64,000 nucleotides of DNA from positions 124,001 to 188,000 of the forward strand of contig NZ_CAJZAH010000001.1 in the NCBI RefSeq assembly GCF_914271545.1, written 5' to 3'. This document shows positions 1 through 9,308 of the stretch, piece by piece (the first letter of the stretch is position 1; the number at the start of each line of letters is the position of its first letter). Under the pieces are notes generated by a model. It did not search any database. It was given only the letters and a program-made list of their open reading frames with translations, and was not told the DNA's origin. Made by a program: the position numbers and the translations under genes. Source of the stretch: Cupriavidus respiraculi (lineage in GTDB: Bacteria; Pseudomonadota; Gammaproteobacteria; Burkholderiales; Burkholderiaceae).

Positions 1-500
1 TGCGCAAGATCGGCGGCAAGATCATCAAACCGCTGGGCGGCGCCCTGAAGGGGCTTGCCAAGAAGGCACTGCCCTTCGTTGGCGGCGCACTCGGCTCCTT
101 TATCCCTATTCCGGGCGTCGGCACGGCCGTGGGCTCCGCGCTGGGCTCCGCGGTGAGCAAGGCCCTCGAGATGGAGTTCGAGGGCATGGACCAGGAAGAC
201 CAGGAGTTCGAGATGGCCAAGCGCTTCGTGCGTGTGGCGGGCGCCGCGGCGAAGCAGGCCGCCGCCGCCGGCGCCAATGGCGATCCGCGCGCCGCGGTGA
301 AGGCGGCGGTCGTCGCCGCGGCGCGCCGCCATGTGCCCGGTCTTGCGGGCGGCCGGCAAGGCGGCATGGGCGGCATGGGCGGCATGGGCGGCATGGGCCG
401 CGGCCAGGGCGGCGCCATGTCCGCGGGCGGCAACTATGGCGGCGGCCGCCAGGGGCGCTGGATCCGCCGCGGCCGCAAGATCATCCTGATCGGCGTCTGA
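1..500 (+). CDS. Glycine-rich protein with acidic-aromatic motif (5' end outside window)
   Basis: The frame is open from the first base, so the N-terminus lies upstream of the window; about 165 residues are visible. In order they show a hydrophobic glycine-zipper-like stretch (LPFVGGALGSFIPIPGVG), an acidic-aromatic segment (MEFEGMDQEDQEFEMAKRFV), an alanine-rich helical part, a Gly-Met-Gly repeat and a basic C-terminus (RRGRKIILIGV). No catalytic motif is visible. I do not recognise the function. The glycine-zipper stretch suggests membrane contact or oligomerisation, which is inference. It is followed 7 bp later by the zincin gene and looks like part of the same operon. The Phe/Glu motif recurs in two other proteins of the cluster. 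Confidence 0.7.
   Translation, partial: RKIGGKIIKPLGGALKGLAKKALPFVGGALGSFIPIPGVGTAVGSALGSAVSKALEMEFEGMDQEDQEFEMAKRFVRVAGAAAKQAAAAGANGDPRAAVKAAVVAAARRHVPGLAGGRQGGMGGMGGMGGMGRGQGGAMSAGGNYGGGRQGRWIRRGRKIILIGV
362..397 (+). repeat. Four 9-bp tandem repeats coding Gly-Gly-Met
   Basis: Four perfect copies of CGGCATGGG lie head to tail inside the glycine-rich gene and encode the Gly-Met-Gly run. Such a short in-frame array can change length by slippage without shifting the frame. Confidence 0.9.
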
Positions 501-507
501 CGTCGCC

Positions 508-7395: not shown

Positions 7396-8487
7396 ATGAA
7401 CAGGCAGACCGGCACGGGGCCCTGCGCGGGGGCGGGCAGGCACGATCCCGGCGTCTTTCCGTCCGCGGTGCGCGCCGCGCTCGGCAAGGGCCAGGAACAG
7501 GCAGCGCTGCGGCTGGCATGGCAGGCCGGGCACCGCGACCCGAAGGCGCTCACCAACCTCGTGTTCTTCGCCCGCCATCCCGAGCGGCGCGGCTGCGCGC
7601 TGCGCCGTGGCGAGCCGCGCTTCGCCGCGTTGGGCCGGGAATGGCTGCGGATCCGCAGCGATCTGGTGCGGCCGCTGCTCGGCAAGGACGGGGCGGCGAC
7701 GGCGGTCGCGGGGCCCGCCGGCCTGACGCTGTACCCGCGCATCCCCCTCGGCGCCGAAGGGAAGGCGCAGCCGATCACGGGGATTTATCTGCCCGCAGGC
7801 TATCGCCCGACTTCGGCCGTCGACATCATCGTCTACCTGCACGGACACAAGGCACCGTGCGGCGGCAGCGAGGACTGGACCATCGAGTCGATCTGGCGCT
7901 CCGCCTTCTTTCCGCTGCGCGAAGGGCTGGACCGCAGCGGACGCAATGCGGTACTCGTGGCTCCCACGCTGGGCGCACGCTCGCAAGCGGGCGACCTGGT
8001 CAAGCCCGGCGGGCTGGACCGCTATCTGGAGCGGGTGCGGGCGGCGCTGGCCGCGAGCGCGCCGTTCCGCCAGGCCGGAATCACGCCCGCGATCGGTCGC
8101 CTCATCCTCGCCTGCCATTCCGGAGGTGGCGCCCCGATGGCGGTGCTGGCCACCTCGCGCGGCAACCGCCATGCGGCCGCGATCCGGGAATGCTGGGGCT
8201 TCGACAGCCAGTATGGCGATCCCTCGGGCTGGGCGCGATGGGCGCGCAGCCGGCCCGACGCGCGGCTCTACCTGTACTACTACACGCGGCCCTGTGCGCG
8301 CCCGCCATGCCCGAAGCCGCTGACGCCCGAGGTCCATTCGCGGCGCCTGCAAGGGCAGGGCCTGCCCAACGTCATCGTGGCGGCCACCACGGTATCGCAC
8401 TGCAAGGTGCCGGCGGCTTTCTGGCAGGCGCGCATCGCCGGCGCGGGCCTGGCGCCGGCCGGCGGCGCGGCAGCGGGGCGGCCATGA
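7396..8487 (+). CDS. Alpha/beta-hydrolase-like protein sharing a linker module with the upstream hydrolase
   Basis: This 363-residue protein has an N-terminal module (about 20-95) that aligns with residues 304-380 of the SleB-MepA protein; both contain xPSxV, then NLxFxxxHPER, then GEPxxAxLxxEW. The remainder looks like an alpha/beta-hydrolase: YLHGHKAP (HG oxyanion motif), ACHSGGG with probable nucleophile Ser242, and TVSHCKVP with probable catalytic His335. The substrate is unknown; an esterase, lipase or amidase activity would fit. Its stop codon overlaps the start of the amidohydrolase gene in ATGA, so the two are translationally coupled. There is no signal peptide. Confidence 0.72.
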   Translation: MNRQTGTGPCAGAGRHDPGVFPSAVRAALGKGQEQAALRLAWQAGHRDPKALTNLVFFARHPERRGCALRRGEPRFAALGREWLRIRSDLVRPLLGKDGAATAVAGPAGLTLYPRIPLGAEGKAQPITGIYLPAGYRPTSAVDIIVYLHGHKAPCGGSEDWTIESIWRSAFFPLREGLDRSGRNAVLVAPTLGARSQAGDLVKPGGLDRYLERVRAALAASAPFRQAGITPAIGRLILACHSGGGAPMAVLATSRGNRHAAAIRECWGFDSQYGDPSGWARWARSRPDARLYLYYYTRPCARPPCPKPLTPEVHSRRLQGQGLPNVIVAATTVSHCKVPAAFWQARIAGAGLAPAGGAAAGRP

Positions 8488-9308
8488 TCGTCGATTGCCA
8501 CTGCCATGCGGGCAAGGGCGACGGGCTGACCGGTCCATGGGACACGGCCGCGCCGCTGACGCACTACCTGCGCCGTGCGGCTCGCGCCGGCATCCATCGC
8601 ACCGTGCTGCTGGCGGCCTTCCACTCGGACTATGCCCGGGCCAACCGCGAGGTCGCGCGCATCGTGGCCACGCGGCCCGACCGCTTCTACGGCTTCGCCT
8701 TCGTCAATGCCGCGCAGGATCGCGGGCGGATCGACGAGATGGTGGGGGTCGCGGTCGAGCGCGATGGTTTCGTCGGCATCAAGGTCCATCGGCACGACGC
8801 GCGCATCACGCGCGAGATCTGCGAGGCCGCGCGCGCCTACCGGCTGCCGGTGCTGTACGACGTGACCGGCGAGATCGCCGTGGTGGAACTGCTGGCGCAG
8901 GAATACCCGGACGTGCGCTTCATCATCCCGCACCTTGGGAGCTTCGCCGACGACTGGCGCGCGCAATCGGGACTGATCGACCCGCTGACGCGGCATCCCA
9001 ACATCTACGCGGATACGTCGGGCGTGCGGCGTTTCGACCTGCTGCTGCAGGCGGTGCGGCGCGCCGGGCCGCACAAGGTGCTGTTCGGCTCCGATGGTCC
9101 GTGGCTGCATCCCGGCGTGGAACTGGCCAAGATCCGGGCCCTGCGCCTGCGCGCTTCGGACGAGGAACTGATCCTGGGCCAGAATTTTCTGCGCCTCGTC
9201 GCCGGTGTGAGAACGCGCCGGCTGACCCCGCGCGCGGCCGCGCCGCTGCGGCCCCAGGTCGAGCACGAAGCGCCGGATCCGTGGCTGACCGCCGGCGCCT
9301 CCGGATAG
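8484..9308 (+). CDS. Amidohydrolase family protein (amidohydrolase_2 type)
   Basis: This 274-residue TIM-barrel metal hydrolase opens with MIVDCHCHAG (metal ligands His6 and His8). It then has GIKVH, IIPHLGSF and FGSDGPW, which supply the further ligands and the catalytic Asp of the amidohydrolase_2 group (aminocarboxymuconate-semialdehyde-decarboxylase-like). The substrate cannot be read from the sequence. The start is fixed by the ATGA overlap with the preceding gene. It is the last same-strand gene of the cluster and faces the sigma-54 regulator 30 bp away. The metabolic look of this gene contrasts with the wall hydrolase upstream, so its part in the system is open. Confidence 0.8.
   Translation: MIVDCHCHAGKGDGLTGPWDTAAPLTHYLRRAARAGIHRTVLLAAFHSDYARANREVARIVATRPDRFYGFAFVNAAQDRGRIDEMVGVAVERDGFVGIKVHRHDARITREICEAARAYRLPVLYDVTGEIAVVELLAQEYPDVRFIIPHLGSFADDWRAQSGLIDPLTRHPNIYADTSGVRRFDLLLQAVRRAGPHKVLFGSDGPWLHPGVELAKIRALRLRASDEELILGQNFLRLVAGVRTRRLTPRAAAPLRPQVEHEAPDPWLTAGASG

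Follow-up and report, generated by a model that had tools for sequence, protein, structure and literature searches.

Why would a peptidoglycan hydrolase, a metallopeptidase and a pyridoxal phosphate (PLP)-dependent enzyme be encoded side by side with acidic, aromatic-rich proteins? The question is raised by the left end of the stretch of Cupriavidus respiraculi DNA that we analyzed, a window of 64,000 nucleotides (C1:124001-188000, C1 being contig NZ_CAJZAH010000001.1 of a 5.59 Mb assembly; window position 1 is C1:124001) in which eight plus-strand open reading frames (ORFs) occupy positions 1-9308. We found that these genes belong to a recurring unit with three core families – an acidic glycine-zipper protein, a protein with an HEXXH motif and a protein of 638 residues in the window (hereafter the 638 family) – together with an oxoamine synthase, an amidohydrolase, a slot of exchangeable genes that we call cargo, and a convergent sigma54-dependent activator. 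We put at about even the chances that this unit is a self-contained, horizontally spread, sigma54-switched system that would deliver interchangeable bacteriolytic enzymes without the Sec pathway.

To follow the unit across genomes we used the 638 family. In a scan of an 84,980-genome collection, 219 stretches encoded a relative. Within the genus, 11 of 59 other genomes proved to have the 638-residue protein, against 0 of 40 others elsewhere in the order, and tblastn matched it on four plasmid records (a plasmid tblastn search with a segment of the acidic protein gave no match). The 95 loci analyzed were all picked by this family: the best 80 of the 219 stretches, a further 14 taken from plasmids or same-genus genomes, and L006. 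Genes were predicted by a purpose-made caller, not Prodigal, and counts are uncorrected for relatedness except where genus groups are named.

In the same-genus and plasmid loci that we mapped, the gene order is acidic, HEXXH, 638 family, oxoamine synthase, variable stretch, amidohydrolase and convergent activator, with the exceptions that a Paraburkholderia locus (L031) lacks the synthase and a Rhizobium locus (L029) the amidohydrolase. Six-frame profile searches of all 95 loci, many of them on short contigs, found the 638 family in 95, HEXXH in 91, acidic in 85, synthase in 76, activator in 74 and amidohydrolase in 62. Among the 64 loci that are well flanked (at least 5 kb upstream and at least 8 kb downstream; 29 genus groups), the acidic, HEXXH and 638 families stand together in all 64, the activator is present in 61 (convergent in 58), the synthase in 55 and the amidohydrolase in 50, and all six families occur together in 45. 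A preliminary description of this DNA had proposed that repeated co-occurrence in distant taxa would support a common system and that scattered homologues, or a known island clearly matching every gene, would speak against one; the co-occurrence is what we observed, and the opposing patterns were absent within the searches made.

All 15 pairs among the six core or linked proteins show correlated pairwise distances (rho 0.39-0.75; 27 of the 95 loci were omitted as redundant), and permutation reached the observed value in 0 of 300 cases for 14 pairs and 2 of 300 for one, as expected if the six proteins are inherited jointly, with species relatedness also contributing. From genome titles, we take the hosts to be proteobacteria, Acidobacteria, Geobacter/Geotalea, Planctomycetes, Chloroflexi, Methylomirabilis, Rokubacteria, Myxococcus/Archangium, Nitrospirota, actinobacteria and one Bacteroidota assembly. 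Five phyla (proteobacteria, Acidobacteria, Geotalea, myxobacteria and actinobacteria) include isolates; the others are represented by genomes assembled from metagenomes. The locus is rare: it was found in 4 of 398 Pseudomonadota genomes (the window's own counted), 1 of 199 Acidobacteriota and 1 of 198 Actinomycetota, the latter two each being the genome chosen as search centre. Its distribution over about ten phyla is patchy, and horizontal spread is our best reading of this pattern. We also observed a divergent version (L135:2481-10169), in which an acidic gene and an HEXXH gene are accompanied by a 594-residue protein replacing the 638 family and by an adaptor-M74 gene (the adaptor is described below) on the opposite strand.

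In the window and the sequence to its left, the unit is composed as follows (window positions unless marked C1; fractions refer to well-flanked loci):

C1:122818: sigma54-like site CGGCACGGCTGATGCT, 76 bases ahead of the first acidic paralogue
C1:122894-123667, plus strand: acidic paralogue preceding the core acidic gene, in sequence left of the window
<1-500 (whole gene C1:123760-124500), plus strand: core acidic glycine-zipper protein, truncated by the window edge; family in 64/64 loci
508-1866, plus strand: core HEXXH (HExxHQ) putative zinc metallopeptidase, without curated relatives; 64/64 loci
1889-3805, plus strand: core 638-residue protein with a variable N-terminus (Ig-like by eye) and a conserved domain of ~470 residues
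3818-4840, plus strand: usual core alpha-oxoamine-synthase-like PLP enzyme; 55/64 loci; apparent frame shift near 4,675
4918-5664, plus strand: variable-slot protein with an acidic-aromatic N-terminus and a hydrophobic C-terminal part; no above-noise relative in the other loci
5722-7368, plus strand: variable-slot cargo with a SleB-like module (by eye), an adaptor domain and an M74 murein endopeptidase domain (by Pfam)
6661-6840, plus strand: adaptor domain copy inside the M74 cargo
7396-8487, plus strand: variable-slot cargo with an N-terminal adaptor domain and an alpha/beta-hydrolase-like domain (by eye)
7489-7674, plus strand: adaptor domain copy inside the hydrolase-like cargo
8484-9308, plus strand: usual core amidohydrolase of the Amidohydro_2 family; 50/64 loci
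9339-10748, minus strand: convergent sigma54-dependent activator (bacterial enhancer-binding protein, bEBP), GAFTGA motif read from the sequence; 61/64 loci, 58 convergent

The eight close-packed plus-strand genes of the preliminary description are thus all real ORFs, but the extent given to the cluster was too small: the first genes of the operon, which begins at C1:122894 and 1.1 kb beyond the window's left edge, encode two acidic-aromatic paralogues, the sole members of their family in this genome, and the unit is closed on the right by the activator. Nor do the eight genes form a single set, the three at 4918-5664, 5722-7368 and 7396-8487 being replaceable cargo and not core. The second of the two acidic-aromatic proteins described, encoded at 4918-5664, does have the acidic-aromatic N-terminus; it gives no significant match to the acidic family and sits in the variable slot.

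We took the slot to end wherever the amidohydrolase, the activator or a change of strand was reached, a rule by which the slots of two Streptomyces loci (L078 and L086) extend into unrelated genes. The slot contains 139 proteins in 82 loci, represented by 96 at 60% identity; the window's hydrolase-like gene is not counted among the 139. A Pfam scan took in 86 of the 96 representatives (outside it were L052:18471, L053:16723, L053:16928, four of L078, L088:15370, L096:12517 and L097:4661). Among the first 25 of 36 families listed, PG_binding_1 was the most frequent (39), followed by PG_binding_3 (13), OmpA (7), Trypsin_2 (7), Amidase_2 (6), M74 (5), GIY-YIG (5), DUF2272 (4), Trypsin (4), M20_dimer (3), and glucosaminidase, M20 and NLPC_P60 (2 each), with GH25, M23, VanY, glyoxal oxidase, GDSL lipase and beta-lactamase-like domains as singletons. 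When the GIY-YIG matches were checked singly, one from Ensifer was over the cut-off and the four others under it. A passage of PMC10318531 treats DUF2272 as a papain-like family and compares it with Tse1. M74 was also present in L078:11637, which was scanned separately.

We observed no Sec-like N-terminus in any of the 139 slot proteins, against 91 of 721 control proteins from the same loci. The core is nearly as free of them, at 0/161 for the acidic family, 0/91 for HEXXH and 1/95 for the 638 family. The Sec test, like the transmembrane test below, is a simple hydropathy rule and not SignalP; by this rule the earlier statement that the key proteins have no Sec signal holds.

The two enzyme cargos of the window illustrate how the slot varies. 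The M74 cargo is 53% identical over its length to a Methylobacter slot protein. It had been called a SleB-MepA fusion; the M74 half is supported by Pfam, while the SleB half has no Pfam match. This SleB-like module recurs in Streptomyces cargo, residues ~25-259 being 64-66% identical to Streptomyces slot proteins. In two of these (L078:11637-13115 and L086:11631-13169), the shared SleB-like module (64-66%) and the M74 module (40-42%) stand in the opposite order to that in the window, which suggests module shuffling across phyla. The other cargo, described as an alpha/beta-hydrolase, has no Pfam or PDB match to bear this out and shares 43% identity with part of a Rhizobium cargo.

Two features mark subsets of the cargo. 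An acidic F-x-x-x-P-F tag at the N-terminus occurs in 20 of 88 non-redundant slot proteins and in 3 of 525 controls. The pattern was chosen after inspection of the sequences, and its position is a better control than this enrichment count: 24 of the 46 occurrences of a wider pattern in slot proteins lie within the first 30 residues. Over 40 residues, a set of 46 tagged cargos has a median net charge of -6.5. In the window, the acidic slot protein has a tag-like N-terminus that lacks the P, and the two other cargos are without it. Both of the latter contain the second feature, a 62-residue adaptor domain found in 14 proteins from 10 loci, where its partner modules include M74, NLPC_P60 and Amidase_2. 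Genome-wide, the adaptor was detected in 4 of 32 cluster genomes, all five matches lying inside the loci analyzed here, and in 1 of 298 other Pseudomonadota genomes (for which fewer candidates were scored per genome). That lone adaptor, fused to M74, is encoded about 4 kb away from divergent HEXXH (E 3e-20) and acidic (E 5e-8) genes, with no 638-family gene nearby by profile; starting from the adaptor, an independent search thus arrived at a relative of the system with which we began. We infer that tag and adaptor are recruitment marks for cargo.

The unit appears to be switched by sigma54. The activator carries a full sigma54-activation domain (Pfam). Taking the consensus TGGCACG-N4-TTGCW as quoted in a passage of PMC3665592, we called a site where at least 10 of 12 positions agreed, GG and GC being fixed, at most 350 bases before the first acidic gene. 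Such a site is present in 59 of 82 loci, against a per-locus background of 0.0245 (0.0085 in shuffles), and in 29 of 43 genus groups. Some loci have a further, divergently transcribed gene with an acidic-family domain (L029:4007-5314; likewise in L064, L072, L055 and L059). In L029 it has its own sigma54-like site, TGGCACTGGGCTTGCA, 61 bases upstream, and the regulon may therefore include both sides.

In actinobacteria the switch travels with its sigma factor. Actinobacteria are stated in a passage of PMC3665592 to contain no sigma54 gene, and we detected any sigma54 in only 5 of 198 sampled Actinomycetota, Streptomyces nymphaeiformis among the five. We found RpoN inside or beside the cluster in Nocardiopsis terrae (L083:7029-8339), S. 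nymphaeiformis (L085:3670-5013), a Geodermatophilaceae strain (L088:5452-6741) and Modestobacter excelsi (L089:5457-6746), and in each case it is the only sigma54 found in the genome. All four have the core-binding and DNA-binding domains; the activator-interacting domain passes its cut-off in all but L083, where it scores lower. Ahead of the acidic gene we found a sigma54 site in L083 and L085 and none in L088 and L089. In the genomes of three further loci (L078, L086 and L080) no sigma54 was found, and no activator was seen in those three stretches. An RpoN-like gene also adjoins the activator in Palleronia (L061:16458-17666), by clustering and eye only. An operon that brings its own sigma54 into actinobacteria means that a regulatory layer moves with its target, whatever the function of that target.

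The three core families are without a recognized relative in the libraries searched: no representative scored above a curated cut-off of Pfam or NCBIfam, and PADLOC and PHROGs matched none of them. Six proteins of the window or L006 had no PHROGs match, and the sole match to the PADLOC anti-phage defence models was the AAA+ part of the activator. Members of the acidic family have an acidic aromatic N-terminus, a conserved ELLxVxxExELxxFLGxLI-type segment and a glycine-zipper stretch, with a median of 8 GxxxG motifs against 2 in controls. A C-terminal W.R.G motif is present in 138 of 161 of them (20 of 862 controls), and 67 of the 81 that directly precede an HEXXH gene start with MH[DN] (3 of 862 controls). 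Glycine-zipper models match weakly and under threshold; among PDB profiles only designed helical proteins match, and those weakly (best E 0.0057), which we take to reflect composition. The acidic-family domain is in two cases fused to a cargo-type domain, VanY (L085:6148-8592) or OmpA (L108:8822-11125), suggesting that this core domain can carry cargo directly. In most same-genus loci, a Gly-rich, collagen-like gene of 348-353 residues precedes the acidic gene (e.g., L032:13785-14843).

The HEXXH motif noted earlier is conserved as HExxHQ in 90 of 91 homologues, with E245 and D249 invariant in a 49-row alignment. The protein is probably a protease; no Pfam family was over its cut-off and PDB sequence profiles gave nothing up to E = 10. 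In the 638 family the ~470-residue domain is highly conserved and the N-terminus varies, matching CarboxypepD_reg in 6 of 57; the Ig domain read into the window's protein finds no Pfam match, no PDB profile matched the family up to E = 10, and searches of phage or viral sequences gave no homologue.

The two usual core enzymes are of known type, as previously proposed. By profile, the PLP protein belongs to the alpha-oxoamine synthases, with matches to solved structures down to E 1.7e-24 and an invariant lysine in an SLAKAFG-type motif; its BioF equivalog score is 54.8 bits (cut-off 426). The window's copy aligns with homologues in the frame of 3818-4840 until their residue ~284, and another ORF (4476-4946) covers residues ~281-353. 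A real mutation and an assembly error are both possible causes of this apparent frame change at 4,670-4,680. The amidohydrolase is confirmed as Amidohydro_2. A reading in which the acidic protein is the precursor of a ribosomally synthesized and post-translationally modified peptide is disfavoured, the synthase being absent in 9 and the amidohydrolase in 14 of the 64 well-flanked loci.

Cargo content and missing Sec signals favour an effector reading. In the mechanism that we propose, the activator would open the operon upon some cue, and the acidic protein, via its glycine zippers, and the 638-residue scaffold would assemble into a particle or membrane conduit. Cargo would be recruited through the acidic FxxxPF tag or the adaptor domain and would cross the envelope independently of Sec. 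The HEXXH protein, probably a protease, may mature core or cargo, and the oxoamine synthase and amidohydrolase may modify a component. Once outside, the cargo would digest the walls of competitors or prey, along with their other polymers. Cargo export, a carrier role for the acidic and 638 proteins, and other bacteria as targets are all inferred. The host taxa include Ensifer adhaerens and Myxococcus, both named as predators in a passage of PMC10385382, but Nitrosomonas and methanotrophs as well. We hold a bolder form of this reading only tentatively, and doubt it more than we favour it: that delivery is ATPase-free and works for monoderms and diderms alike, with the acidic tag drawn outwards through a conduit or particle of glycine-zipper protein and scaffold by the membrane potential – the cytoplasm being electrically negative – and with sigma54 co-travelling in actinobacteria as part of a transplantable unit.

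Several observations weigh against the delivery reading. Among 862 non-core genes in 51 genus groups, the neighbours that recur in at least four groups are three cargo families, a flanking two-component regulator-kinase pair and RpoN; no transporter, ATPase machine or immunity family recurs in at least four groups beside the core, although fast-evolving immunity proteins could escape such a count. These gaps in energy source and self-protection are the strongest facts against delivery. The membrane-prone stretches ascribed to the acidic proteins have little support from our hydropathy rule, by which a transmembrane-type window is found in 1 of 161 members. The rule is crude, since it also scores 57 of 91 HEXXH and 40 of 75 PLP proteins as positive. 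In addition, our rule finds no sigma54 site in 23 of 82 loci or in 14 of 43 genus groups, 68 of 88 non-redundant slot proteins (the window's three included) lack the strict tag, 28 of 32 cluster genomes lack the adaptor, and the absences of synthase and amidohydrolase given above count here too.

The missing energy source and immunity would be less strange under either of two rival readings. The cargo might lyse or remodel the producer's own envelope – in programmed lysis, cyst or spore transitions, or product release – with tag and adaptor holding the enzymes inactive on the core until a trigger. A mostly peptidoglycan-binding or -cleaving cargo, the lack of a recurring immunity gene or energized exporter and the tight sigma54 control all fit such a programme; we nevertheless think it improbable, because trypsins, M20 peptidases, a glyoxal-oxidase-like protein, a lipase and weak GIY-YIG matches are likewise found among the cargo, which differs between relatives in the manner of weapons, and because the locus occurs in hosts with very different life cycles. 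Alternatively, the core could form an intracellular shell or aggregate that stores tagged enzymes, to be freed by lysis of a sub-population without any export step. Such a particle would suit an N-terminal tag of loading type, the absence of an exporter and hosts regarded as both monoderm and diderm, but no encapsulin or other shell-protein family was recognized in the Pfam, NCBIfam and PDB profile scans, and it is hard to see what synthase, amidohydrolase and protease would do in a shell; we regard this, too, as unlikely.

It is also rather unlikely that the acidic proteins are themselves toxins, comparable to Caulobacter Cdz and matured by the HEXXH, PLP and amidohydrolase proteins, with slot enzymes that merely open the target wall. 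The GxxxG content, the sub-threshold glycine-zipper matches, the frequent tandem paralogues and the conserved MH[DN] and W.R.G motifs would all accord with bacteriocins. However, such toxins usually diversify, whereas the acidic domain is among the most constant parts of the unit and also forms fusions with cargo domains, VanY and OmpA among them, and no conserved ABC exporter or immunity gene accompanies it. Least probable, and by our estimate very unlikely, is a cargo island serving a known contractile injection system (an extracellular contractile injection system, eCIS, or a tailocin) encoded elsewhere in the genome. Non-Sec cargo with an N-terminal tag and an adaptor resembles the effectors of such systems, and the window's genome is one of 17, out of 32 cluster genomes, with a Phage_sheath_1 match. 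According to a passage of PMC11297309, eCIS signals are hydrophilic and contain aromatic residues, and 68 predicted toxins have peptidoglycan-binding domains, which we count for this explanation; the same source reports signals that are not conserved in sequence and are slightly positively charged over residues 6-21, unlike the acidic tagged cargos here. The sheath match is absent in the other 15 of the 32 genomes (some of them drafts), for which reason we rejected an eCIS as a requirement. No contractile gene family is among the recurring neighbours, and no type VI secretion system (T6SS) family (VipA/B, Hcp, VgrG) recurs within the loci, the genomes themselves not having been searched for these.

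If the cargo is delivered as the preferred reading has it, the unit would represent an unrecognized route of export or attack and a source of targeted wall-lytic enzymes. In searches limited to open-licence papers we recognized no description of the cluster. Elsewhere in the window, G+C falls to about 0.59 at 22001-26000, against about 0.69 in the rest, possibly marking a foreign insert.

Several known systems resemble parts of the unit. The PLP protein shares a structure-profile match and the PLP lysine with alpha-oxoamine synthases (BioF, serine palmitoyltransferase, CAI-1 synthase), but it is far under the BioF equivalog cut-off and is located in this locus in 55 of 64 cases. Like the polymorphic effectors of eCIS and T6SS, the cargos are changeable wall-lytic and other enzymes with no Sec signal and an N-terminal tag or shared adaptor; unlike them, they are encoded in a locus without contractile genes, beside core families for which the libraries searched offered no known relative. 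Cdz has a dedicated type I exporter and an immunity gene beside its toxins, whereas no such family recurs here in at least four genus groups, and the present unit has many enzymatic cargos, a sigma54 activator, and the HEXXH and 638 families. What it does share with glycine-zipper killing by Cdz, as outlined in a passage of PMC8386478, are glycine-zipper-rich proteins, no Sec signal and a dedicated locus. Finally, the activator resembles known bEBPs in its activation domain and in the -24/-12 promoter before the operon in most loci; it differs from them in an N-terminal domain without assignment and in that, in actinobacteria and (by eye) Palleronia, it comes with its own RpoN alongside.

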